A stretch of DNA of 49,624 nucleotides from Sphingobacterium sp. T2 (lineage in GTDB: Bacteria > Bacteroidota > Bacteroidia > Sphingobacteriales > Sphingobacteriaceae). Where the stretch lies: assembly GCF_000814685.1 (NCBI RefSeq), contig NZ_JXAC01000011.1, forward strand, positions 1 through 49,624. The letters are read 5' to 3'. A model generated the notes under the pieces. That model made no database searches. It was not told the origin of the DNA and saw nothing but the letters and a program-made list of their open reading frames with translations. The position numbers and the translations under genes were made by a program. This document shows positions 2,639 through 43,909 of the stretch, one piece after another (the stretch's first letter is position 1; every line of letters begins with the position of its first letter).

Positions 2639-3949
2639 ATGTCGCATATCATAATTTTAGAAATAGGAATAGCTGTTTTCTTAGTTGCGTTGGTGGGGCT
2701 GTTGGCAAACAGACTTCGCTTTTCTGTTATTCCCTTTTTTATAATTATAGGTATGATATTGGGCAATAAGGAATACCCTTCTTTTGTTGCTGATTTTCTT
2801 GCATACGTCAATAATCCGGATATTACCTCGTGGGTGGATAAGGTGTGGGTTTTTTTTACTTTTTCAGAGAGCAAGCCTTTTATAGACTTTATGGGGCGGC
2901 TGGGGGTCCTGTTTCTTCTTTTTTATTTGGGGTTGGAGTTCTCTGTTAGCCGTCTACTTAAATCTGGGAAGTCTATAGTCACGGGAGGGACTTTATATGT
3001 CTTTCTTAATTTTGTTTCCGGCTTGTTGATAGGGTGGTTGATGAATCTTCCATTCAAAGAGATGATGGTGCTCTGCGGTTTGATGACAAGTTCATCTACA
3101 GCTATTGTGGCCAAGGTGCTGACAGACTTGAAGCGTACGGCGAATCCCGAGACGGAGGTCATCATGGGCATGATCATGTTCGACGATTTGTTTATTGCGA
3201 TGCATATTTCCTTCCTTTCCGGATTGATATTGACGGGGGGAACTTCCTTTTGGTCTGTGTTGGGCACCTCCCTCTTGGCTTTGGGTTTTATTCTTGCCTT
3301 TCTTATTTTCGGACGCAAGTTGGTTCCTTCCATAGATAAGATTCTTCACGACAAGTCTTCAGAACTTTTTATTCTTATTATCTTCAGTCTGTTGTTTGTG
3401 ATTGCCGGCTTTTCGGAGACCATACATGTGGCGGAAGCTATAGGGGCACTGATGGCAGGGCTTGTCTTTGCGGACTCCAAATATCTTAAGAAGATAGAAA
3501 GCATGGTATTGCCATATAAGGACTTCTTCGGAGCTATGTTTTTCTTCAGCTTTGGCCTTTCAATAGATATCTATTCGTTGGGAGGAGCTGTGGGATGGGG
3601 TGCTTTAGCGGCATTTGTCACCGTACTGGGTAATATTGCCTCCGGCTATTTTGCGACGTATTTTTCTAAACTTAAGCCGCGTAGCTCCTTTGATATAGGC
3701 TTTACCTTATCTGCTAGAGGAGAGTTTTCTATCATTATGGCCAATATCGGCAAGGCGGGAGGACTATTACCGGTGCTTCAATCCTTTGTGGTGGTATATG
3801 TTCTTCTTTTATCTGTTATTTCCCCATTATTGACCAAGGAGTCGCGAAATATATGGAACGCTCTTTTTGGGAAGGAGCAGAAAGCTTCCAAAGCTCGAAA
3901 GACTTTAGAGGAGCTGGAAGCTTCTGTGCAGGAAAAGGAACTAGAGTAG
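2639..3949 (+). CDS. khtU: KhtU-like cation:proton antiporter, CPA2 family
   Basis: This is a 436-residue integral membrane protein with about 12 hydrophobic segments and the Na+/H+ exchanger fold of the CPA2 family. It starts at ATG 2639, right after khtT. Visible family signatures are FLLFYLGLEFS, LMTSSSTAIVAKVL, DDLFIAMHISFLSG and ARGEFSIIMANIG. Unlike KefB/KefC it has no C-terminal RCK_N domain, which fits regulation by the separate KhtT subunit. The last about 35 residues are a charged cytosolic tail (EELEASVQEKELE). Its 3' end overlaps the convergent DUF59 gene by 9 bp. Likely role: K+/H+ or cation/H+ exchange for pH and ion homeostasis. Confidence 0.88.
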   Translation: MSHIIILEIGIAVFLVALVGLLANRLRFSVIPFFIIIGMILGNKEYPSFVADFLAYVNNPDITSWVDKVWVFFTFSESKPFIDFMGRLGVLFLLFYLGLEFSVSRLLKSGKSIVTGGTLYVFLNFVSGLLIGWLMNLPFKEMMVLCGLMTSSSTAIVAKVLTDLKRTANPETEVIMGMIMFDDLFIAMHISFLSGLILTGGTSFWSVLGTSLLALGFILAFLIFGRKLVPSIDKILHDKSSELFILIIFSLLFVIAGFSETIHVAEAIGALMAGLVFADSKYLKKIESMVLPYKDFFGAMFFFSFGLSIDIYSLGGAVGWGALAAFVTVLGNIASGYFATYFSKLKPRSSFDIGFTLSARGEFSIIMANIGKAGGLLPVLQSFVVVYVLLLSVISPLLTKESRNIWNALFGKEQKASKARKTLEELEASVQEKELE

Positions 3950-4273
3950 TCCTAGTTCCAGCTTAGCTTCTTCACTCATCATATCCTTAGTCCATGGTGG
4001 ATCGAATGTTAGTTCCACCAATGCTTCCGTTACGCCGGGGATAGCGGCTACCTTACGTTGTACTTCGTCGATGATGTCTCCGGCAACAGGGCATCCGGGA
4101 GCAGTTAAGGTCATCACCACTTTGGCAATTCCTCCTTCTTTGGTGATGATTTCGTATACCAATCCCAAATCTAGGATATTAGCAGGTCTAAGTTCCGGAT
4201 CGTAAACTGTCGCTAGTACTTCTTTGATTTGGGGAGCTAACCCCAATGGGTCCATTATTATGATGCTATTCAT
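3941..4273 (-). CDS. DUF59 / MIP18-family Fe-S cluster assembly protein (SufT/PaaD-like)
   Basis: This 110-residue protein is a single DUF59 (MIP18-like) domain. Family marks are VYDPELRPANILDLGLVYEI at the start and LTAPGCPVAGDIIDEV with the conserved Cys, then ELTFDPPWTKDMMSEEAKLELG. Such proteins take part in Fe-S cluster maturation and in Bacteroidota are often annotated as metal-sulfur cluster biosynthetic enzymes. The start may be ATG 4273 or the ATG at 4255 (MDPLG). It follows the GT4 gene by 11 bp on the same strand, so the two are probably cotranscribed. It overlaps khtU tail to tail by 9 bp. Confidence 0.85.
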   Translation of the reverse strand: MNSIIIMDPLGLAPQIKEVLATVYDPELRPANILDLGLVYEIITKEGGIAKVVMTLTAPGCPVAGDIIDEVQRKVAAIPGVTEALVELTFDPPWTKDMMSEEAKLELGLL

Positions 4274-4284
4274 AGTATTCGTTT

Positions 4285-5450
4285 TTATGCTGATGCTATA
4301 ATTTCTTTATAAACCTGGATAAGCTGTTGAACGTTTTTGTCCAGAGTGTACTTCTCCTCGTACTCCTTAAGACAATTATCGCTCATAAATTGTTTTTCTT
4401 CTTTGTCCAGAAGGGCGAACTGTTTCACTTTTTCACCTAGGTCTTTCGGGTTGTTGGCTTCAACATGCAAACCTGTTTTGCCGTTGATGACTATTTCGCT
4501 TAATACGCCTAGATTGCTGGCTAGAACCGGTGTTCCCAAGGCATAGGCTTCCAATAGTGTCATCGGCATACCTTCAAGACAGATGGAAGGAACGATGAGC
4601 GCTTGACATGATGCTAGGGCAGAGGCCAAAACCTCTTTGGGTTGAAAACCTTTATAGATGATGTTGTGGTGTTGTTTGGATGCTAGCTCTACCGCTGCTC
4701 GTAGCGGTCCATCGCCATAGATGACCAGCCGCTGTTGACTGTACGTCTTGAAAGCCTCCAGCAGAGATTCCACACCTTTTTCCTGCGACAACCTGCCTAT
4801 GTAGAGAAAAAAATCTTCCCGAGGGGTTAATGCAGCGGAAGAAGGTTTTTCTACCGCTATTCGTTTTTACAGTTATTCGCACTTCTTTGAATGTTTTTTG
4901 GAGATCTGAGAATCAGGCTTTTCATAAACTGTGAGAATACCAGATAGCGGTCTACCATCTTCCACGTATTTAGTTTATGGTGGATATAATAGGTCCACGC
5001 TGTCCAGAATGTTTTTAGCAGAGAGTTATCCAATGACTTTTGCCATACAGACTTCCACGGAAATACCCTCTCTATAGTATCCAAAAAGACTTTATTGCGC
5101 ACAAATAAGGTTGCGGAAGGGTCCAAAAGTCGATGGTTGTGTAAGGTCTGTATGGTTTTAAAACCAGCCTTATGCAGGTGACGTATAGCCAAGGGGCCTA
5201 TAGCATAATGTAGGTTATGAAAGTGTACGATATCAGCTCCACATTCTTTGGCTTTCCGAACAATCTTGCGTGCAGCAAAGGGGTTCCAAGGATATAATGC
5301 AAACTGAAGTAGCCCTGCAAAACCTTTCCTGTTTTGGAAGGTTAGGGTTTCTATCGGCATTATCTGTTGGAGGGCTTCCACTTCTTGACGAAAGACTACA
5401 TCTTCACCGCCTTTATGCTGATAGTAATTATGGACTACTAGTATTCGCAT
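4285..5450 (-). CDS. GT4 family glycosyltransferase, two frameshifts
   Basis: Rebuilt, this is a GT-B fold retaining glycosyltransferase of about 388 residues. The start at 5450 gives MRILVVHNYYQHKGGEDVVF, a common GT4 opening with the glycine-rich loop. The C-terminal half has YIGRLSQEKGVESLLEAF, the donor-binding PSICLEGMPMTLLEAYALGTPV (EX7E-type) and a final helix. Two frameshifts separate the parts, in the T6 run near 4891-4896 and in the T5 run near 4864-4868. Removing one base at each gives SPKTFKEVRITVKRIAVEKPSSA, joining the two halves. It is divergent from the polyprenyl synthase gene. Acceptor and donor are unknown; cell-surface polysaccharide or LPS assembly is likely. Confidence 0.82.
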
Positions 5451-5560
5451 GCATGGTAATTTGTACAAATATAATACTAATACTAGAGGCAATTTGCAAG
5501 GAAATGTAAAAGCGTTAAAAAATATATGTGTATCTTCGTATGGTTATTCTAATATCAGAT

Positions 5561-6538
5561 ATGTTTGGAAATCCGTATTATGCTGAGAAGATCAGCCATG
5601 CTTTAGCAAATCTCAATCTTCCTGAGTCACCGACAAACTTATACGAACCTATAGAGTACATCTTATCGCTTTCCGGAAAGAGAATACGTCCGCAGTTGGT
5701 GTTTATGGGGGCTAGCTTGTTTGGATATAAGGAGCTGGATGACGTACTTCCAGCCTCTATTGCGGTGGAATATTTCCACAACTTTTCGTTGATGCACGAT
5801 GATATCATGGATAAGGCTCCACTGCGTAGAGGTAAGCAGACTGTTCATCAAAAGTGGGATGACAATACGGCTATCCTATCGGGGGATGCCTTGCTGGTGA
5901 AGTCTTATGAGGAATTGTCCAAGTGCCCTTCGAAAAGTGTTCCGGCCCTGTTGAAGACCTTTAACCGTGTAGCACTGGAAGTGTGTGAGGGACAGCAGCA
6001 TGATATGGATTTTGAGCAGCGTAAGGATGTTTCGCAAGACGAGTATATAGAGATGATACGCCTGAAAACATCCGTATTGCTGGGGGGAGCTTTAGAGATG
6101 GGCGCGATTATCGCGGAAGCGGATGTGGATAACATTCAACGTCTGTATGATTTTGGTGAAAATCTAGGCATAGCTTTTCAACTGCAGGACGATATCTTGG
6201 ATACTTTCGGAGATCCTGAAACCTTCGGAAAACAAGTGGGAGGCGATATTATTGCTAATAAGAAAACCATTTTGCATATTCTCCTGAAGAGAGCGCTTAC
6301 GGAAGGGGATAAAACAGAATTTGACGCCATTCTACAGCTAAACGGTCAGGATAGTGTAGAAAAGGTAAGGCGTATGAAAAAATTATACGACAAGTATAAA
6401 ATATTTGAGCAGGCTAATACGTTAAAGGAAGAGTATTCAAGCAAAGCTTTGAAAAACCTAGACAGCATTTCGGTCCCTCGTGAAAATAAAGAGGATTTAT
6501 ACGTTTTAGCAGACAACTTATTGCACCGCACCAAATAA
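5561..6538 (+). CDS. Polyprenyl diphosphate synthase (trans-isoprenyl diphosphate synthase)
   Basis: This enzyme condenses isopentenyl diphosphate onto allylic diphosphates to make a polyprenyl chain for menaquinone or lipid carriers. Both Asp-rich motifs are present: DDIMD at about 5796-5810 and DDILD at about 6186-6200. Flanking conserved pieces are SGKRIRPQLV, APLRRGKQTVHQKW and the Lys in GKQVGGDIIANKKT. The frame is open from a GTG at 5528 with ATGs at 5540 and 5561. I prefer 5561 (MFGNPYYAEKI), because a TAnnTTTG-like box (TATCTTCG, 5529-5536) overlaps the earlier starts. The length, about 325 residues, is normal. Chain length cannot be read by eye. Confidence 0.9.
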   Translation: MFGNPYYAEKISHALANLNLPESPTNLYEPIEYILSLSGKRIRPQLVFMGASLFGYKELDDVLPASIAVEYFHNFSLMHDDIMDKAPLRRGKQTVHQKWDDNTAILSGDALLVKSYEELSKCPSKSVPALLKTFNRVALEVCEGQQHDMDFEQRKDVSQDEYIEMIRLKTSVLLGGALEMGAIIAEADVDNIQRLYDFGENLGIAFQLQDDILDTFGDPETFGKQVGGDIIANKKTILHILLKRALTEGDKTEFDAILQLNGQDSVEKVRRMKKLYDKYKIFEQANTLKEEYSSKALKNLDSISVPRENKEDLYVLADNLLHRTK

Positions 6539-6540
6539 TT

Positions 6541-6571
6541 TTGTGTGAATCATAAAAAAGTCTTATATTTT
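6541..6571 (+). promoter_or_regulatory. Candidate Bacteroidota promoter for the nitrilase gene
   Basis: TTG at 6541-6543 and TATATTTT at 6564-6571, separated by 20 bp, approach the Bacteroidota consensus TTG-N19-TAnnTTTG with one mismatch in the -7 box. Transcription would begin near 6578, about 37 bp before the ATG at 6615. Sequence match only. Confidence 0.45.
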
Positions 6572-6614
6572 TAAAGTATTTGTAATAAACATTTTGTATA
6601 AGGAAAGTTACTTG

Positions 6615-7391
6615 ATGGAGCCTATTAAAATAACAATATTTCAAGCTTACCTATTCTGGGAAAACGTAGAGAAGAATCTTCAAAATCTAAGTTTGAGATT
6701 ATCCGCTTTACGTGAGAAAACAGATTTAATCCTCCTTCCTGAAATGTTTAATACAGGATTTACGACCAATGTGGAGAAATGTGCTGAGGCTATGGACGGC
6801 ATGACTATGCGCTGGTTGTACAATACGGCTAAAACTTTTGACTGTGTTGTAGCAGGCTCCTTAATCATTAAAGAGAACGACCAATACTTTAACCGCTTTG
6901 TGTGGATGTCGGCCGATGGTAGCTATGTGTATTATGACAAGAGACATCTCTTTGCCTTGGCACAAGAGGACAAAGATTTTACCCCCGGCAATTCACGTAT
7001 CATTTTCGAGCTGAAAGGGTGGAAGATATGTCCAATGATATGCTATGATTTACGTTTTCCGGTATGGTCCCGCAATGTGGAGAATGGTTATGATCTCTTG
7101 GTATATATCGCTAGTTGGCCGGATAAGCGTTCAGCACATTGGAGAGCTTTGATTCCGGCAAGGGCAATAGAAAACCAAGCTTATGTGATAGGTGTAAACC
7201 GCGTAGGACACGACGGCAACGAAGTGTACTATTCGGGCGGTTCGATGTGTATTTCTCCTCTGGGAGATGTGGTATATTATAAGCCGGAAGATGAGGACCT
7301 TTATACCTTCACCTTAAATCCTAAGGATCTCACTAAAGCGAGAGAGCAGTTCCCTTTCCTTAAGGATGCTGATAAATTCTCATTACTGTAG
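6615..7391 (+). CDS. Carbon-nitrogen hydrolase, omega-amidase (YafV/Nit2-like)
   Basis: The protein is a 258-residue nitrilase-superfamily amidase with the complete Glu-Lys-Cys triad: E43 in LLPEMF, K109 in YDKRHLF and C143 in ICYDLRFPVW. The GFTTNVEKCAEAMDG and YDKRHLFALAQEDKDFTPG segments match the omega-amidase (YafV) branch. That branch hydrolyses alpha-ketoglutaramate or alpha-ketosuccinamate in methionine salvage and glutamine transamination. The start is ATG 6615; the frame extends to a TTG at 6594 but MEPIKITIFQ is the usual N-terminus. It is a cytosolic single gene, convergent with the small membrane protein gene downstream. Confidence 0.85.
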   Translation: MEPIKITIFQAYLFWENVEKNLQNLSLRLSALREKTDLILLPEMFNTGFTTNVEKCAEAMDGMTMRWLYNTAKTFDCVVAGSLIIKENDQYFNRFVWMSADGSYVYYDKRHLFALAQEDKDFTPGNSRIIFELKGWKICPMICYDLRFPVWSRNVENGYDLLVYIASWPDKRSAHWRALIPARAIENQAYVIGVNRVGHDGNEVYYSGGSMCISPLGDVVYYKPEDEDLYTFTLNPKDLTKAREQFPFLKDADKFSLL

Positions 7392-7398
7392 GAAAATC

Positions 7399-7804
7399 TT
7401 ACTGGTAAGGTCTTTCTAATATAGCAGACTGTATTATTGCTGTACGTAAGTCGAATATTTTCTCCTTTTCTACAGTTTCCTTTTGGGCTTGCTGCGCTTT
7501 ATGTAGCTTGATGGTCTTTTCTTTTTCCTTCAATTCTCTACTGCGCTTCAGTGCCAATACCTCTTCGGGCATAGACTCTTCGATCAGAGCGGTTTTCTCC
7601 AATTTGGTATAGACAGACTTTTCCACTATTTGGGGGAGCTGGTTTGAGCTCAGGCTGTGATTGTGGGAGTGGTGAAGACTTAGGGCGGACAGGCCTTTGT
7701 TGGGACATTCTCCTTTTGGCTTTTTCCTGTTCTTTCTGATAATTTCTAGAAACATTTATGACAAAAGCTATTACAAAAAAGATTATGACCCAATAGTTTT
7801 CCAT
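7399..7804 (-). CDS. Small membrane-anchored charged protein, unknown function, frameshifted
   Basis: I do not recognise this family. Two overlapping frames join into one protein of about 134 residues: MENYWVIIFFVIAFVINVSRNY provides a single N-terminal transmembrane helix, then comes a Lys/Arg/Pro/Gln-rich linker, then a highly charged helical tail (LALKRSRELKEKEKTIKLHK). The join lies between about 7590 and 7640, probably at the G5 run at 7632-7636. Topology suggests a short membrane anchor with a cytosolic coiled tail. It is convergent with the nitrilase gene (7 bp gap) and divergent from marR. That one helix plus charged tail is preserved across the frameshift supports a real gene. Confidence 0.55.
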
Positions 7805-7902
7805 AATTTAAATATACGCATTATATACAATTTTTATAAAAAATTTGTATTATTAAAATAATCTTGCTTAATTGCATAAACAACCTAAATTATAAGCTAA
7901 TC

Positions 7903-8343
7903 ATGAACGAAACACTAGTTTTATCGGAAGAATTTTATTCTTTCTTGACGGGGAAAGTTTCGACTGCAATCTCAAGGAGATTACAGCGTAATCTGAAAGC
8001 GGCTAAGTTGAACATTACTGCCGAGCAATGGACTATATTATATCATTTGTGGAGAGAGGAAGGCTTGACGCAGCAGGAACTTGCTAATCTGACCTATAGA
8101 GATAAACCTAGTATTACGCGATTGATTAACAATTTGGAGAAAATGTCTTTAGTAATCCGTGTCAACGATAAGAAAGATCGTCGTTCTAATCTTATATATC
8201 TTACTAAGGAGGGGCGTCGCTTGAAGGAGGAGGGCATGCGGCAGTCCGCCTTGACATTGAAAGAAGCTACGGAAGGTCTGGATTTGCAGGAGTTACAGGC
8301 CGCGCAACGTATCTTGGATAAAGTTTTTCATAATATAAAATAA
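7903..8343 (+). CDS. MarR-family transcriptional regulator
   Basis: This is a 146-residue winged-helix regulator. The helix-turn-helix core reads LTQQELANLTYRDKPSITRLINNLEKMSLVIRV, followed by the wing NDKKDRRSNLIYLTKEGRRLKEE, the DxRDRR-type signature of MarR proteins. The N-terminal and C-terminal helices that form the dimer interface are present. The frame opens at 7864, but ATG 7903 (MNETLVLSEEF) is the better start. It ends just before a strong hairpin terminator. The target is unknown: the gene downstream is on the opposite strand, and no clear palindromic operator was seen next to its promoter region. Confidence 0.85.
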   Translation: MNETLVLSEEFYSFLTGKVSTAISRRLQRNLKAAKLNITAEQWTILYHLWREEGLTQQELANLTYRDKPSITRLINNLEKMSLVIRVNDKKDRRSNLIYLTKEGRRLKEEGMRQSALTLKEATEGLDLQELQAAQRILDKVFHNIK

Positions 8344-8370
8344 AAAGGTCAACTTTCGTCGACCTTTTTT
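8342..8370. terminator. Bidirectional intrinsic terminator between marR and the GltB-like gene
   Basis: A perfect stem AAAAAGGTC (8342-8350) / GACCTTTTT (8361-8369) with a 10-nt loop sits between the convergent marR and FMN-protein genes. Both strands end in a T run, so it can serve both transcripts. Confidence 0.85.
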
Positions 8371-8381
8371 TGTTACCCTAA

Positions 8382-9944
8382 TCAATCATCTTTCAAGAAG
8401 TCTTCCTTTTCAAAGGTGTTTTCTTTTTTAATATACCTTCCTGTGTCTTTGAAGTAAATTTCGTGGAAGCTTAACGTGGTGATAGCATCTACTTTTCTGT
8501 AGAATTTGTCTGCCGTAATGTCGTCTACGGTCTTGAATCCACAGGCTTCCATGATTTCTACGGTAGCACGCAAGGTATTGCGGTGGAATTGTGCTACACG
8601 CACATGTTTATCCTGAACGTCTAGTCCTTTGTATAGGTGAGGTCGCTGTGTTGCTACACCTACCGGACAGACGTCTTCATTACATTTGAGTGCTTGGATA
8701 CATCCTAAGGCAAACATCATTCCGCGGGCGCTATAGCAAGCATCAGCTCCTAAGGCCAAGACTTTCAATAAGTCGAAGCCGGTGATGATTTTGCCGGAGG
8801 CAATGATTTTGATATGTTTCTTCAGCCCGTAGCTGATTAATGTTTTGGTAGCGAAGGCCAAGGCATCATACAGCGGCATACCTAGGTTGTCCGTAAATTC
8901 CAGAGGTGCAGCTCCTGTACCTCCTTCAGCACCGTCTATGGCGATGAAATCAGGGAATATCTGCGTGTCTTGCATAGCTTTACAGATATCCAAAAACTCC
9001 TGTCTGTCGCCGATACAGATTTTGAAACCTACAGGCTTATAGCCTGACAGTTCACGCAGCTTCTGTATGAAGTGCATCATCTCTACGGGGTTGGAAAATG
9101 CGCTGTGTGCCGGAGGAGAAAGCACGTCGGTACCCGGCACGACGTGACGGATTCTAGCCACTTCAGGTGTGTTTTTTGCCGCAGGTAAGATACCGCCGTG
9201 GCCTGGTTTTGCCCCTTGTGAGATTTTCAATTCGATCATCTTTACGTAGGGTCTGTTGGCCTTTTCCGTGAACAACTCGGCATTGAAGTATCCATTCTCG
9301 TCACGACATCCAAAATATCCGGTACCTATCTGCCAGATAAGGTCCCCGCCATTGATATGATAATCACTAATACCACCCTCTCCGGTGTTGTGAGCAAAAC
9401 CTTGCAATGCGGCACCTTTGTTTAAGGCTTCGATGGCGGTTTTACTCAAGGCACCATAACTCATCGCCGAAATGTTGAAGATACTCATGTTGTAAGGTTG
9501 CTTACAAGCTTTGTTTCCTACAAGGACGCGAAGGTCATGGTTTTCTATATGTGTAGGGAATATTGAATGCGCTACCCATTCGTTGCCTACCGCCTGAGGG
9601 TCTTGTTGCATACCGAAAGCTACCGTCTCTCGCTGGTTTTTCGCTCTTTGGTATACAATAGAACGTTGTCTACGGTTAAAAGGTCTTCCGTCTGTATCTG
9701 ACTCCCAGAAATATTGTCTCAGCTCGGGACGGAAAGATTCAAAGAAATAACGGAATGCACCTACCAAAGGATAGTTACGTAAGATTGCATGTTTCGTCTG
9801 TAAACTGTGGTAGATTGCTACAATCAATAAAGGAATAGGGATAAGCAATAACCAAAACCATCTCGGCGTGAATATTATACCAAAAGATATAATAACAAGG
9901 TTTATCGCCGTGATGATTATAAGAATCAGTTTTCTTACTGCCAT
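8382..9944 (-). CDS. Membrane-anchored FMN-binding glutamate-synthase-like protein
   Basis: The protein has 520 residues. Two hydrophobic helices at about residues 4-48 anchor it; a soluble part follows, matching the FMN/synthase domain of GltB: NISAMSYGALSKTAIEALNKGA, NTGEGGISDYH, SQGAKPGHGGILPA, IDGAEGGTGAAPLEF. Around residues 413-425 it keeps C-x5-C-x4-C followed by PVGVATQ, the same spacing as the 3Fe-4S ligands of GltB (see gltB). It lacks the N-terminal glutaminase domain with its catalytic Cys and the C-terminal beta-helix domain. It is therefore an FMN and Fe-S protein of the 'FMN-binding glutamate synthase family', with unknown substrate. True gltBD lies about 30 kb away, so this is not a replacement. 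Confidence 0.9.
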   Translation of the reverse strand: MAVRKLILIIITAINLVIISFGIIFTPRWFWLLLIPIPLLIVAIYHSLQTKHAILRNYPLVGAFRYFFESFRPELRQYFWESDTDGRPFNRRQRSIVYQRAKNQRETVAFGMQQDPQAVGNEWVAHSIFPTHIENHDLRVLVGNKACKQPYNMSIFNISAMSYGALSKTAIEALNKGAALQGFAHNTGEGGISDYHINGGDLIWQIGTGYFGCRDENGYFNAELFTEKANRPYVKMIELKISQGAKPGHGGILPAAKNTPEVARIRHVVPGTDVLSPPAHSAFSNPVEMMHFIQKLRELSGYKPVGFKICIGDRQEFLDICKAMQDTQIFPDFIAIDGAEGGTGAAPLEFTDNLGMPLYDALAFATKTLISYGLKKHIKIIASGKIITGFDLLKVLALGADACYSARGMMFALGCIQALKCNEDVCPVGVATQRPHLYKGLDVQDKHVRVAQFHRNTLRATVEIMEACGFKTVDDITADKFYRKVDAITTLSFHEIYFKDTGRYIKKENTFEKEDFLKDD

Positions 9945-37926: not shown

Positions 37927-39394
37927 TTAAGCGTAATCGAATACGGCCTCTTTACTTTCGAGTGCGGTTTGTCCCATCAAGTATTCATCAACTTTACGGG
38001 CACATTCGCGGCCTTCGGAGATAGCCCATACTACCAGTGACTGTCCGCGGCGCATGTCGCCAGCAGTGAAGTACTTCTGAATGTTGGTTTGATAAGAACC
38101 TTCAGCTGCTTTGACGTTGCCTCTTTCGTCTAGGGCGATACCCAGCTGCTGCAGTAGGCCTTCGTGTTGAGGGTGCAGGAAGCCCATAGCCAGTGTTACC
38201 AGCTCGCATGGGATTTCACGCTGTGAGCCTTCTACTTCCTTGAATTTCACGGGACGGCCGTTGGCGTCGGTTTCCCATTCTAAGTCTACAACAAGAGCGG
38301 CGCGCACATGTCCTTTGTCATCTCCTAAGAATTCTTTTGTGCTTACACTCCAGAATCGTTGACAGCCTTCCTCATGCGATGTTGTAGTTTTCAGGAGCAT
38401 AGGGTAGGTTGGCCATGGCATAGCTGCTGTACGGGCTTTCGGTGGTTGAGGCATAAGCTCGAATTGCGTTACTGACTTGGCGCCTTGTCTGTTGGCTGTT
38501 CCTACACAGTCTGATCCGGTGTCGCCACCGCCGATGACCAATACATTTTTTCCTGTAGCCAGAATTTCTTCTACCTCTATTGGAGAGTTGCCTATACGCT
38601 TGTTCTGTTGTTTTAGGAATTCCATGGCAAAATGGACGCCTTTAAGCTCACGGCCCGGAATATTGAGGTTACGCGGAATAGTCGAGCCGCCGGCTAGCAC
38701 CACCGCATCGTATTGATCCAGCTCAGAGACGGGAACATTCTTTCCTACTTCGGCGTTGGTGCGAAACTCTATGCCGGATGCCTTCATGATTTCAATACGG
38801 CGGTCCACTACGGACTTGTCCAACTTGAAGTCAGGAATGCCATAGCGAAGAAGGCCCCCTACTTTATCGTCACGTTCGTAAACCACTACATCGTGTCCAG
38901 CCTTGTTGAGCTGGGCTGCGGCAGCCAAACCTGAGGGACCGCTGCCTACTACTGCCACTTTTTTGCCTGTCTTTAATACTGGCGTAGCGGGTTTAACATA
39001 GCCTTTTTTATAGGCAATTTCTATGATATGTTTTTCTATTTCCTCAATGGCTACAGGGTTTTTGTTTATGCCCAACACACATGCCGATTCGCATGGAGCA
39101 GGGCATATACGTCCTGTGAATTCAGGAAAGTTATTTGTCGAGCTCAAGATGTTGTAGGCGTCTTCCCATCTTCCATCGTAGACAGCGTCGTTGAATTCGG
39201 GGATGACATTGCCTAATGGACAACCCGAGTGACAAAACGGAATGCCACAGTTCATACAGCGGGCAGCTTGTGTGTTGAGTTGTTCGTCTGTGTAGGTGTG
39301 TACAAACTCTTTATAGTTGTTGTTTTCTATTTTCTACAGCCTCTTTTGGCGGAAGTACTCTGTCAAATTCTAAAAATCCAGTTGCTTTTCCCAT
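37927..39394 (-). CDS. gltD: Glutamate synthase small subunit, frameshifted near the N-terminus
   Basis: About 489 residues. GltD takes electrons from NADPH to the GltB subunit. ATG 39394 gives MGKATGFLEFDRVLPPKEAVENR; one frameshift in the T/A run near 39330-39337 restores KNNYKEFVHTYTDEQLNTQAARCMNCGIPFCHSGCPLGN, which carries the N-terminal 4Fe-4S cysteines. Next come CPAPCESACVLG, the FAD-binding GKKVAVVGSGPSGLAAAAQL and the NADPH-binding NVLVIGGGDTGSDCVGTANRQGAKSV, and the C-terminal FTAGDMRRGQSLVVWAISEGRECA. It follows gltB by 17 bp, as in gltBD operons, and ends in a hairpin terminator. Confidence 0.93.
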
Positions 39395-39411: not shown

Positions 39412-42400
39412 TTAAGCTACAACCATTTTTTTTCTTAACACCGCTTTGTATTCGCGAGGGAACACCTTAATGAATTTGTTCTTTTCTGTAGCCCAATTTT
39501 CTAAGATATATGTTGCCCTCTCACTTCCAGTGAGGTGGATATGACGTTTCAGTAAGGATATGATGGCTGTTTCATCTTCTGGTTCAAGTGGGTCTAGGTC
39601 CACCATTTCTTGGTTGCAGTTGATTCTGAAATTGCCTTTAATATCATATACCCAAGCTATACCGCCGCTCATCCCTGCTGCGAAGTTTCTTCCCGTCTCT
39701 CCTAAAATCAGGCACGTCCTCCTGTCATATACTCACAGCCGTGGTCTCCCACACCTTCTACTACTGCTGTAGCTCCTGAGTTACGTACGGCAAAACGCTC
39801 TCCCGCCATACCGTTGACGAAAAGGTGTCCGGAGGTGGCGCCGTACAAGGCTACGTTGCCGATGATGATGTTTTCGTGAGGGACAAGCTTGCTGTCCTTA
39901 GATGGGTAGATTGCGATCTGAGCTCCCGACAAACCTTTGGCGACGTAGTCGTTGGCTTCACCTTCCAATTCAAACGAAATACCTTTGGTGTTGAATGCTC
40001 CGAAAGACTGACCCGCCGACCCTTCGAACTTAAAGTTGATGGTGTTGTCTGGCAGACCTTCGGAACCGTAGCGTTTCGAAATTTCGTTTGACAGCATCGT
40101 TCCTATGGTACGGTCTGTATTTTTTACCTTGAAAGTTCCGAACACAGGGGTTTTGTTTTCCAAAGCTTCTTTTGCCTGCTTTATCAGCCCCCAATCCAAA
40201 ATCATGCTTAAGCCATGGTCTTGTTCTTCGGTATTATATAAGGTCTGTCCTATTTCATTGCGCGGCACGTACAGAATGCTGGAGAAGTCTACTTTGCTGG
40301 CTTTCCAGTGATTGATATCTTCACGTTTTTTCAAGAATTGAGCTCGACCTACCATCTCATTGATTGATCGGAAGCCTAATTCTGCCATGATTTCGCGCAT
40401 CTCTTCTGCCAAGAAGCGGAACAGGTTGATAATATCTTCTGGTTTTCCAGAGAATAGCTTACGTAATTCAGGATCTTGAGTGGCCACGCCTACAGGACAG
40501 GTGTTCAGATGACATTTGCGCATCATGATACATCCTCCGGCGATGAGGCAGCTGTAGCTACGCCCCATTCTTCTGCTCCTAAGAGGGTTGCTATGACAAG
40601 GTCACGGCCTGTCTTCATCTGTCCATCGGCTTGTAGCACTACACGGCTGCGCAGTTTGTTTTTCACCAAGGTTTGATGTGCTTCTGCGAGCCCTAGCTCC
40701 CATGGTAGTCCGGCATGTTTGATAGAGCTTATAGGAGAAGCTCCCGTACCTCCATCATATCCCGCGATGAGGATGACGTCGGCATGGGCTTTGGCAACAC
40801 CGGCGGCAATGGTTCCTACACCCGCCTTAGACACCAATTTCACGTTGATACGAGCCTCCCTGTTGGCATTTTTCAGGTCGAAAATCAGCTGTGCCAAATC
40901 TTCGATAGAATAGATGTCATGATGTGGTGGAGGAGAAATCAAGCCTACACCAGGTGTAGAGTGACGTACTTTAGCAATCCACTCATCCACTTTATGGCCA
41001 GGAAGCTGCCCGCCCTCTCCAGGTTTAGCCCCTTGTGCCATCTTGATCTGGATTTCGTCAGCCTGAGTGAGATAGTTTGATGTAACTCCGAAGCGTGCTG
41101 ATGCCACCTGCTTGATAGCCGATCGCATAGAGTCTCCATTAGGCAGTTTTTGATAGCGGATTTCGTCTTCCCCTCCTTCTCCCGTGTTGGATTTGGCACC
41201 GATACGGTTCATAGCAATAGCCAGTGTAGAGTGTGCCTCATGTGAGATAGAACCGAAAGACATAGCTCCTGTAGCAAAGCGCTTCATAATTTCTGTGGCA
41301 GGTTCTACCTCCTCCAGAGGGATAGGATTTCTATGTTTGGCAAAGTCCAATAAGCCGCGTAAGGTGAACATACGCTCTTTTTGGTTATTAATCAATGCCG
41401 AATATTTCTTATACGCTTGATAGTCGTTATTGCGGCAGGCTTGTTGTAGCAGGTGTACTGTCTGTGGATTCCAAAGATGTCCTTCTCCGCGACGTTTCCA
41501 TTGGTAGATACCGCCTTCCGGCAAGATAGGTTTTACGTTGCGGGTAGGGGCAAAGGCTCTCCAGTGTTTCTTCAGTGCTTCTTGAGCGATATCGTCAAGC
41601 GTCAGGCCTCCGATGCGAGAAACCGCTCCACAGAAGTATTTGTCAACAACAGATTTGTCTATACCCAACACTTCGAAGATTTGTGCTCCGTGATATGATT
41701 GAAGTGTGGAGATACCCATCTTCGAGAAGATTTTGAGTAAACCATTGCATACTGCCTTTACATAGTTTTTGCGTAGTTGAGGCCATTCAAGCTCAGTATC
41801 CAACAAACCTTGCTCTTTCAGCGTGCGTATGCTTGCTAAAGCAAGATAAGGATTTATGGCTGTAGCACCGAAGGCTAGCAGACAGGCGAAGTGGTGTACC
41901 TCCCATACGTCTCCGGCTTCTACCACAAGTCCTATAGCACCACGGTTGCCTGTTTTGATAAGGTGATGGTGAACGGCAGAAACCGCCAACAACGATGGTA
42001 TGGCGGCATGTTGTGAGTCTATGGCGCGGTCCGAAAGGATGATCACTTCAAATCCGTCACGTACGGCATCGTCTGCGTAACGGCATAGACGCTCCAGTCC
42101 GGCTTCTAATGAGCCTGGCTTGCCGTCCGCCTTGAAATAGCATTGTAAGGTTTTTGCTTGGAACACTCCCGTGTCGATAGAGCGTAGTTTTTCCAATTCG
42201 CTAGAAGTCAGAATGGGATGTTCCAAAGTTACACAATGACAAGACTTTTGATCTTCTACCAAGATATTACCGGAATTGCCGATGAATGTTGCCAAACTCA
42301 TCACCAGACGCTCACGTATAGGGTCTATCGGTGGGTTGGTCACCTGAGCAAAAAACTGTTTGAAATAGCTTGTCAGATGTTGAGGATGGTCGGACAATAC

Positions 42401-43909
42401 GGCAAGAGGCACATCCGTACCCATAGACCCCACCGGCTCATAGCCTGTAGTTGCCATAGGTGAAAGGATGGTTTCTATATCTTCACGTGAGTATCCGAAT
42501 GCCTGTTGATATTTGAACACAGAGTCTTTGGACAGATAAGTAAATGTCACACGAGGCTCTGCGAGTTCTTCTAACTTGATTTTGTATTTGTTTATCCAGT
42601 CGCCGTACGGCTGCTTGCTTACCAACTCGCCTTTGACCTCTTCATCGGTACGGATTTTACCTTGTTCCATATCCACGACAAAGATTTTTCCCGGCTGTTG
42701 GCGACCTTTTTTGATGATGGTAGATTCGTCTATAGGGAGTGCTCCTGCTTCCGATGCAACAATCACACGGTCGTCCGAAGTTACGGCGTAGCGTAATGGA
42801 CGAAGGCCGTTGCGGTCCAAGGTCGCACCAATTACTTTACCGTCGGTAAAACATAATGCCGCTGGGCCGTCCCATGGTTCCATCAAGGTAGCATGGTATT
42901 CGTAGAATGCTTTTTTCAAAGGATCCATCTGTGGGTTTCCGTCCCATGCCTCGGGAACTAACATCAGCATGACGTGAGGTAAGCTACGTCCACTATGAAG
43001 CAATAACTCTACAACATTATCCAAGCATGCTGAGTCCGATTGGCCTTTATCAACCACAGGGAGAAGGATTTCCATTTCTTCTTCTGTAAAATAAGGAGAA
43101 GAAAGAGAACGCACCCCTGCATAAAACCAGTTGAGGTTACCGGTAAGGGTATTAATCTCTCCGTTATGGGCCAAAAAACGGAAAGGCTGGGCCAACGACC
43201 ACGATGGGAAGGTGTTGGTAGAGAAACGCGAGTGTACCAAGCCAAAGGCCGATACTACACGAGGATCTCTAAGGTCTTTGAAATAAGTGCCAACCTGATA
43301 TGTTGTCAATTGCCCTTTATATACTATAGTTTTGCAAGAAAGCGATGCTATATATAATGGTAGCGGATATTCTTGGGTGGCTTTGATCTTTTGAATGATA
43401 AGTCTTCTAAGGACATATAATTTACGTTCAAAATCTTCCGTATTGGTCACCCCTACAGGACGTGAAACGAAAAACTGCACGATTTCTGGCTCGGCACTTA
43501 ACGCTGTTGGCCCTATACCTTCTTTGTTGACCGGAACAGTTCTGAAGCCTAAAAAGTCCATCTTACGGTCTTCCGTCGCCTCTTGAATTACCTGACGGCA
43601 GATCTGGTTTAATGTTTCGTCTTTCGGTAAAAATACCATACCTACCCCATAATAACCGGGTTCAGGTAATTGGATGTCTAAGTTGATACATTCTTCCCAA
43701 AAAAATTCATGCGGGATCTGTATCATGATTCCTGCTCCATCACCACTTTCAGGATCACATCCGCAGGCTCCGCGGTGCTCCATGTTTTCCAACATCACTA
43801 AGGCATCGCGAACATGGTCATGCGATTTTTTACCCTTAATGTGCGCTACAAAGCCTACACCACATGCATCGTGTTCAAATTCCGGGTTGTAAAGTCCTTC
43901 TTGCTGCAT
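39412..43909 (-). CDS. gltB: Glutamate synthase large subunit, two frameshifts
   Basis: About 1499 residues, the normal length. Domain order: N-terminal glutaminase (amidotransferase) with the catalytic Cys in [15 protein letters not shown] after a short propeptide; central domain; FMN-binding synthase domain ([50 protein letters not shown]); 3Fe-4S motif C-x5-C-x4-C with PVGVATQ at about 40501-40535; and C-terminal beta-helix ([36 protein letters not shown]). Frameshifts lie near 40545-40550 (a missing [13 protein letters not shown]) and near 39708. With GltD it makes two glutamates from glutamine and 2-oxoglutarate. Confidence 0.95.

Follow-up and report, generated by a model that had tools for sequence, protein, structure and literature searches.

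Which reaction would be catalysed by a protein that keeps the flavin and iron-sulfur domain of glutamate synthase, carries a predicted membrane anchor and has no glutaminase domain? This question is raised by a gene in the stretch of DNA analysed here (the window), 49,624 nucleotides of contig NZ_JXAC01000011.1 of Sphingobacterium sp. T2. The gene and the parts of its product are as follows.

8382-9944, minus strand: GltB2-type coding sequence of 520 aa with an ATG start, for a membrane-anchored protein with the GltS FMN/synthase domain (ORF and domain search)
9870-9938, minus strand: predicted membrane helix 1, residues 3-25 (hydropathy, 6-24; model, 3-25)
9801-9860, minus strand: predicted membrane helix 2, residues 29-48 (hydropathy, 30-48; model, 27-34 and 36-48)
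8535-9488, minus strand: PF01645 Glu_synthase domain (FMN barrel and Fe-S loop), residues 153-470 (Pfam, 291.7 bits)
8667-8702, minus strand: C415-x5-C421-x4-C426, putative [3Fe-4S] ligands (invariant in 151/151 sequences)
9147-9218, minus strand: residues 243-266 with the invariant Q243, K246, K257 and R266 (alignment, 151/151)

An earlier note on this DNA had described a protein that shares its FMN domain and a C-x5-C-x4-C PVGVATQ motif with the GltB of the same window, has two N-terminal membrane helices and lacks the amidotransferase domain, and this description holds. The Fe-S motif of 8382-9944 is followed by PVGVATQ and matches that of the window's GltB in both spacing and tail. Pfam finds no GATase_2 (PF00310), Glu_syn_central (PF04898) or GXGXG (PF01493) domain in 8382-9944, whereas the PF00310 glutaminase domain of the window's gltB scores 586.1 bits. 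On NF008730, the NCBIfam equivalog model of GltB, the protein reaches 136.4 bits, below the cut-off of 1047.

Hydropathy analysis detects two hydrophobic segments at the N-terminus (residues 6-24 and 30-48), and a model by AlphaFold (mean pLDDT 81.7, pTM 0.80, from 32 sequences) places helices at residues 3-25, 27-34 and 36-48, followed by more helix and the barrel; the FMN-facing loops 243-251 and 342-353 have a pLDDT below 50. The basic residues that flank the pair of helices, before the first and after the second, suggest a cytoplasmic location of both ends. The anchor is general in the family: at least one hydrophobic 19-mer lies upstream of the marker motif in 154 of the 156 homologues scored, the other 23 of 179 having no marker motif and being left unscored, and the two exceptions have short upstream stretches.

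In a fold search (VIA), seven GltS entries come first (Z 28.8-31.7), and the best other entry scores 23.6. The fold is thus nearest to the FMN domains of GltB. Compared with GltB (7mfm, 1ea0, 6s6s and 1ofd), the window protein has in common the FMN/synthase barrel, the C-x5-C-x4-C motif and the equivalents of K246 and R266; it differs in the presence of a membrane anchor and in the absence of the glutaminase, central and GXGXG domains. Domain content, invariant cysteines, model and fold search together support the idea of a predicted membrane flavo-Fe-S protein distinct from GltB.

An alignment of 151 sequences (150 loci and the window protein) shows which parts of the active site are retained. 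Residues C415, C421, C426, Q243, K246, K257, R266, K308, D337 and R407 are invariant in all 151, and Q243, K246 and R266 are aligned to Q969, K972 and R992 of Synechocystis Fd-GOGAT, which we take to be its 2-oxoglutarate ligands. Since the three cysteines, Q243, K246, K257 and R266 are invariant, the substrate pocket seems in part to resemble that of GltB. However, the position of I252, which is aligned to GltB Q978, has Ile, Val, Leu or Met throughout the 151 sequences and never Gln, and position 172 is variable, so the pocket differs from that of GltB. In addition, the window protein has H249 where GltB has Glu, and the positions of D337 and R407, invariant in GltB2-type sequences, are occupied in aligned GltB by Ser and by Thr or Ser, respectively.

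The genuine glutamate synthase genes of the window lie at some distance from this gene.

39708-43909, minus strand: true gltB, split between two frames (ORFs 40523-43909 and 39708-40568), with GATase_2, central, FMN and GXGXG domains
37927-39255, minus strand: gltD (TIGR01317, 635.6 bits; cut-off 447.7)

The earlier note had called this gltBD complete and had taken glutamate synthesis to be covered by it. While gltD is present, the gltB coding sequence is interrupted near position 40,550, where two ORFs overlap in different frames; the glutaminase domain, the central domain and most of the FMN domain are in 40523-43909 and the remainder is in 39708-40568. Because gltB is split in the assembly, the argument fails as it was stated. 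Other genes of the assembly are split too. Among 14 ORFs of S. alimentarium (L057) that were compared, 13 matched the window, and three of these 13 are split across frames in it. The genes split relative to S. alimentarium, besides gltB, are a transporter-like gene, ccmF and a glycosyltransferase-like gene (about 14163, 12590 and 4887), and an ilvB-like gene on another contig of the same genome is also split and contains stops. For this reason the break in gltB is read, from the sequence, as probably an indel of the draft assembly and not as biology. On the same ground we do not assume that gltB has been lost biologically, although a relative (G003) whose gltB is in two frames with the break elsewhere in the gene speaks for loss.

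The genome also has a gene of the glutamate dehydrogenase type (PF00208), on contig C46. Such a gene is likewise found in 8/8 genomes that have a GltB2-type gene and no GltB match (these eight having been picked for a GltB2-type gene without a second match), so that these genomes need not depend on the GltB2-type gene for glutamate.

The GltB2-type gene is widespread. It occurs in 17/17 other genomes of the genus that were searched, at 78-88% identity, one copy being cut by a contig end, and a match at E <1e-60 was found in 31/147 other genomes drawn from the phylum (a draw of 148 genomes, including that of strain T2). A scan of named genomes yielded at least 585 relatives, of which the best 80 were used. 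The taxa named in the records of these 80 include Bacteroidota, Proteobacteria, Planctomycetota, Acidobacteria, Omnitrophota and Myxococcota, and the closest among the 80 is that of S. alimentarium, whose 87% identity puts the window within or close to Sphingobacterium. On plasmids, 465 records match 8382-9944, and in 109 of them at least 80% of the query is covered in one place. The 60 plasmid matches listed show 41-56% identity over 81-94% of the length; every row among these 60 with an annotated feature bears the usual annotation name of the family, and the glutamate-biosynthesis GO term is attached in 9/10 plasmid regions examined. The GltB2 proteins include S. aureus SAOUHSC_02760. Like the plasmid-borne members with which it was compared, the window protein combines one FMN domain, the Fe-S motif and an N-terminal anchor; this comparison found no distinguishing feature, and the window copy has no operon partner. 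The protein is thus an ordinary member of a known but apparently uncharacterised family. In genome G096, one of two homologues has two in-frame stops, and stops also occur in the homologues of G081 and G170.

Published accounts of the family are sparse. In the available text of PMC9410917, S. aureus GltB2 is presented, without enzymology, as an ammonium-using glutamate synthase; the protein is also described as a target of the iron-sparing RNA IsrR (PMC9410917 and PMC11257911). A review of Fe-S flavoenzymes treats GltS and, in the part available, states that ORFs with a single GltS domain exist in Archaea (PMC8097209). Searches of the open-access literature (YerD, GltB2, PF01645, GltS active site, cassette) found neither enzymology of the GltB2 family nor a description of the operon link reported below.

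The immediate surroundings of the gene contain the following features.

7864-8343, plus strand: MarR-family regulator, convergent, with the conserved start likely at 7903 (domain search, locus comparison)
8342-8369, strand unassigned (reported on the minus strand): 12-pair stem-loop, terminator-like for the GltB2-type gene (hairpin search)

As had been noted, marR is convergent with 8382-9944 and the stem lies between them; T-rich flanks on either side of it make it a possible terminator for marR as well. The convergent marR recurs in the three named Sphingobacterium loci with sequence past the gene (L057-L059). Elsewhere, clustering of the 179 loci described below finds only distant, non-adjacent marR relatives, in L083 and L127, and tblastn adds one further match in L127 (26% identity). 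The neighbour clusters contain ccmF in Sphingobacterium loci only, for which reason we rejected a function shared with this adjacent gene, and a reading as a defence, toxin or mobile-element gene was set aside because the domain content gives no pointer to any of these. A promoter scan found 11 candidates against a shuffle mean of 5.8; its consensus is not suited to Bacteroidota, so the result was left unused.

The gene had been called an orphan. This is correct for the window locus, where it has no operon partner, but some relatives adjoin genes for thiamine-diphosphate (TPP) enzymes or aldehyde dehydrogenases. The neighbours were collected from 179 loci: 80 from named genomes, ten from plasmids (hand-picked from the 60 listed matches among 465 records), 60 from gammaproteobacteria (60 of the first 62 rows, the other two being L081 and L109, already included) and 29 from alphaproteobacteria (29 of the first 32 rows, L217 among them, without L121's own row and two broken matches). 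Both class draws consist of top rows only, weaker rows being left out, and the flanks extend up to 6-7 kb per locus, less at contig ends.

A TPP-enzyme gene on the same strand (>150 bits) lies within 2 kb in 16/179 loci, namely in 6/80 named, 3/10 plasmid, 7/60 gammaproteobacterial and 0/29 alphaproteobacterial loci; at this score no locus of the 179 has one farther away or on the opposite strand. The six TPP seeds were taken from L075, L092, L118, L138, L144 and L146, so that ten of the 16 matches are independent. The chance of all 16 lying within 2 kb is 3.4e-8 on the assumption of an even spread, with the seed loci included and kinship ignored. Below the threshold, L217 has matches nearby (79 and 66 bits) and L175 has one far away (131 bits, 5.9 kb). 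Similarly, an aldehyde dehydrogenase gene (>300 bits; the seed comes from L092, itself one of the positive loci) is found on the same strand within 2 kb in 11/179 loci and nowhere else at that score. An operon walk identified 140 loci that have at least one operon neighbour; the two families met most often among them were TPP enzymes (15 loci) and aldehyde dehydrogenases (12 loci).

In 163/179 loci, including that of the window, no neighbouring TPP gene reached the threshold. The four named Sphingobacterium loci have none, one of them having almost no downstream sequence, and among those of the best 80 loci that are named as Bacteroidota only L092 has one. In six further plasmid regions outside the 179 loci, an annotated TPP gene stands in the same-strand array in two, one of which (H59) was chosen since it had been shown by a Leisingera match. 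In a FastTree phylogeny of the 151 sequences, those with a cassette are scattered among those without one and make up 14 clades, of which 13 include a TPP gene; note that the tree omits the 29 alphaproteobacterial loci and that the window's clade is connected to all others by a node of support 0.0, so these 14 clades are not a count of events. The cassette-bearing relative nearest to the window protein on this tree is L092 (55% identical).

The 16 TPP neighbours belong to four subfamilies: 2-oxoglutarate-decarboxylase-like, DNGxYK, Xsc and PoxB-like. Eight (L118, L121, L151, L181, L186, L198, L201 and L202) contain DVGAHK and D-x2-Y-x-L. In the available text on the Microcystis 2-oxoglutarate decarboxylase, V382, A384, H385, K386, D462, Y465, L467 and K471 are among the residues docked with substrate or cofactor, and several of these were mutated (PMC10418658). 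By motif, without alignment to the Microcystis sequence, the eight TPP neighbours correspond to most of these residues, the position of K471 being Lys in L186, L198 and L202 and His in the other five; they thus appear to resemble 2-oxoglutarate decarboxylase. An aldehyde dehydrogenase gene lies between the TPP and GltB2 genes in six of the eight loci and beyond the TPP gene in one, and one locus has none. The arrangement recalls the cyanobacterial route of 2-oxoglutarate decarboxylase and succinic semialdehyde dehydrogenase, with the differences that the activity of the cassette partners is predicted from a motif and that the cassettes include GltB2, of which we know no instance in the described cyanobacterial route. 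In six cassette aldehyde dehydrogenases that were scanned, no NCBIfam equivalog exceeded its cut-off. The 2-oxoglutarate dehydrogenase E1 is absent in 3/8 decarboxylase-cassette genomes as against 2/14 cassette-free ones; this comparison derives from 28 genomes searched, with six left out (acetolactate-synthase, Xsc and aldehyde-dehydrogenase-only types and the T2 genome), one of which (G181) also lacks E1.

The DNGxYK type is represented by L092, L109 and L146. All scanned members of this and of the decarboxylase-like type (L092, L109, L118, L146, L201 and, outside the 179 loci, L246) score above the cut-off of the NCBIfam model NF006187, "acetolactate synthase large subunit", so the model does not separate them. 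Xsc is found in L075 (1017.6 bits on TIGR03457) and L081 (94% identical to L075), and PoxB-like enzymes in L138, L144 (both seeds) and L168 (33% identical to L138). The below-threshold matches of L217 are two tandem TPP enzymes, with Pfam TPP domains in the one scanned, and from their sequences they look perhaps pyruvate-decarboxylase-like.

Several loci have additional neighbours. In L075 and L081 the homologue follows Xsc and a MocR-type regulator (scanned in L075; a relative by clustering in L081), and a CobS-like gene lies downstream (scanned in L075, where it scores just under its cut-off). In L241, a plasmid of Qipengyuania citrea, positions 3911-9143 form one same-strand array of the homologue, a mechanosensitive channel, a class II glutamine amidotransferase, possibly a separate glutaminase, and a TPP enzyme whose best NCBIfam model is PoxB-type, below cut-off. 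In eight loci with distant homologues of about 40% identity (L172, L178, L181, L185, L192, L194, L198 and L205), the neighbours cluster with DUF2063 and in part also with MbnB/TglH/ChrH (PF05114) and DoxX, the domains having been scanned in L181 and L178; these arrays presumably resemble bufferin-type peptide operons. RidA, a member of an imine-hydrolase family, is encoded in the same array as the GltB2-type gene in two Leisingera plasmids. Arginine catabolism, considered for the Leisingera cassette because of an agmatinase nearby, was rejected: on the model for 5-guanidino-2-oxopentanoate decarboxylase, with a cut-off of 500, the TPP enzyme of this cassette reaches only 252.2 bits.

For a membrane flavo-Fe-S protein with some of the substrate-end residues of GltB, adjoined in relatives by enzymes of keto acids and aldehydes, the simplest reading is an alpha-amino-acid dehydrogenase. 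We tentatively propose that the window protein is a membrane-anchored, probably quinone-linked, imine-forming amino-acid dehydrogenase of the glutamate type; it may well prove to be something else. The RidA genes in the Leisingera arrays also speak for this proposal. An alpha-amino acid, glutamate or similar, would bind over the FMN, which would take up a hydride to leave an imino acid, and this would be hydrolysed to the alpha-keto acid. The electrons would leave singly by way of the [3Fe-4S] cluster for an acceptor in the membrane, in the simplest case quinone, as the earlier note had suggested. Where a lineage has the operon, the TPP enzyme would act on the keto acid and the aldehyde dehydrogenase on the resulting aldehyde; with a partner of the 2-oxoglutarate-decarboxylase type, the route would run from glutamate through 2-oxoglutarate and succinic semialdehyde to succinate. 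In Sphingobacterium, partner enzymes, if any, would be encoded elsewhere. We infer the substrate from the neighbours, the quinone from the anchor, and the function of the Sphingobacterium protein from relatives that bear a cassette. Several observations count against the proposal: most loci, among them all 29 of the alphaproteobacterial draw, lack a TPP neighbour at the threshold, the pocket departs from that of GltB, the FMN-facing loops are modelled with low confidence, and Xsc, found next to the gene in two loci, acts on sulfoacetaldehyde, which is not an alpha-keto acid.

The published description of S. aureus GltB2 as ammonium-using (PMC9410917) favours another function, namely a glutamate synthase that depends on ammonia or is fed by a separate glutaminase. 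Such an enzyme would convert 2-oxoglutarate and ammonia into 2-iminoglutarate, which FMN would then reduce, ferredoxin or quinol supplying the electrons. The shared FMN/Fe-S domain, the conservation of Q243, K246 and R266 and the amidotransferase gene two genes downstream in Qipengyuania citrea are in keeping with it. We nevertheless consider it unlikely, and favour amino-acid dehydrogenation over ammonia-dependent synthesis for the window protein: synthesis needs no membrane anchor, quinol is a poor donor, the commonest operon neighbours are TPP enzymes and aldehyde dehydrogenases, and a PF00208 gene is present in all eight GltB-less genomes with a GltB2-type gene.

Somewhat less probable still is an alpha-hydroxy-acid dehydrogenase of the lactate or glycolate type with an Fe-S relay, in which the keto acid for the TPP enzyme would come from lactate or 2-hydroxyglutarate. 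FMN hydroxy-acid oxidases share the barrel fold and are the next family after GltS in the fold search (Z up to 23.6), and a malic enzyme gene occurs in the same-strand array with the homologue and TPP enzymes in L217 (2779-11112) and L151 (6998-12923). PF01070 (FMN_dh) also matches the window protein weakly, in 42 residues only (374-415; 26 bits, cut-off 24.9) and not over the whole domain. However, GltS is clearly nearer. Identity to PF01070 enzymes is 12-16% among the structures compared. FMN hydroxy-acid oxidases have a catalytic His and no [3Fe-4S] cysteines, whereas position 340, aligned by eye to that His, is Glu or Asp in 147/151 sequences. That the partner TPP enzymes come from four subfamilies would suit a protein that acts as an electron sink and oxidises the TPP-bound intermediate directly, forming with its TPP partner a minimal 2-oxoacid:quinone oxidoreductase. 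This we regard as very improbable, because in operons that include an aldehyde dehydrogenase the intermediate is presumably released as free aldehyde, and because Xsc works without an oxidant and enzymes of the PoxB type reduce quinone by themselves.

The proposal of an amino-acid dehydrogenase can be extended to the family. GltB2 proteins would then be respiratory amino-acid dehydrogenases that form imines, a class so far unrecognised, in which the GltS FMN/[3Fe-4S] core runs in reverse on the membrane and has been combined in evolution with several TPP subfamilies (2-oxoglutarate-decarboxylase-, acetolactate-synthase- and PoxB-like enzymes, Xsc and perhaps pyruvate-decarboxylase-like enzymes) into amino-acid oxidation modules. 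We hold this extension to be possible, with more doubt than the assignment of the window protein itself. The family is common in the phylum, yet it is annotated as glutamate biosynthesis; if its members work oxidatively on the membrane, this annotation would mislead, and a route by which amino acids feed respiration would have been overlooked. The operon partners point to concrete candidate substrates, with which the function of GltB2 becomes directly testable.
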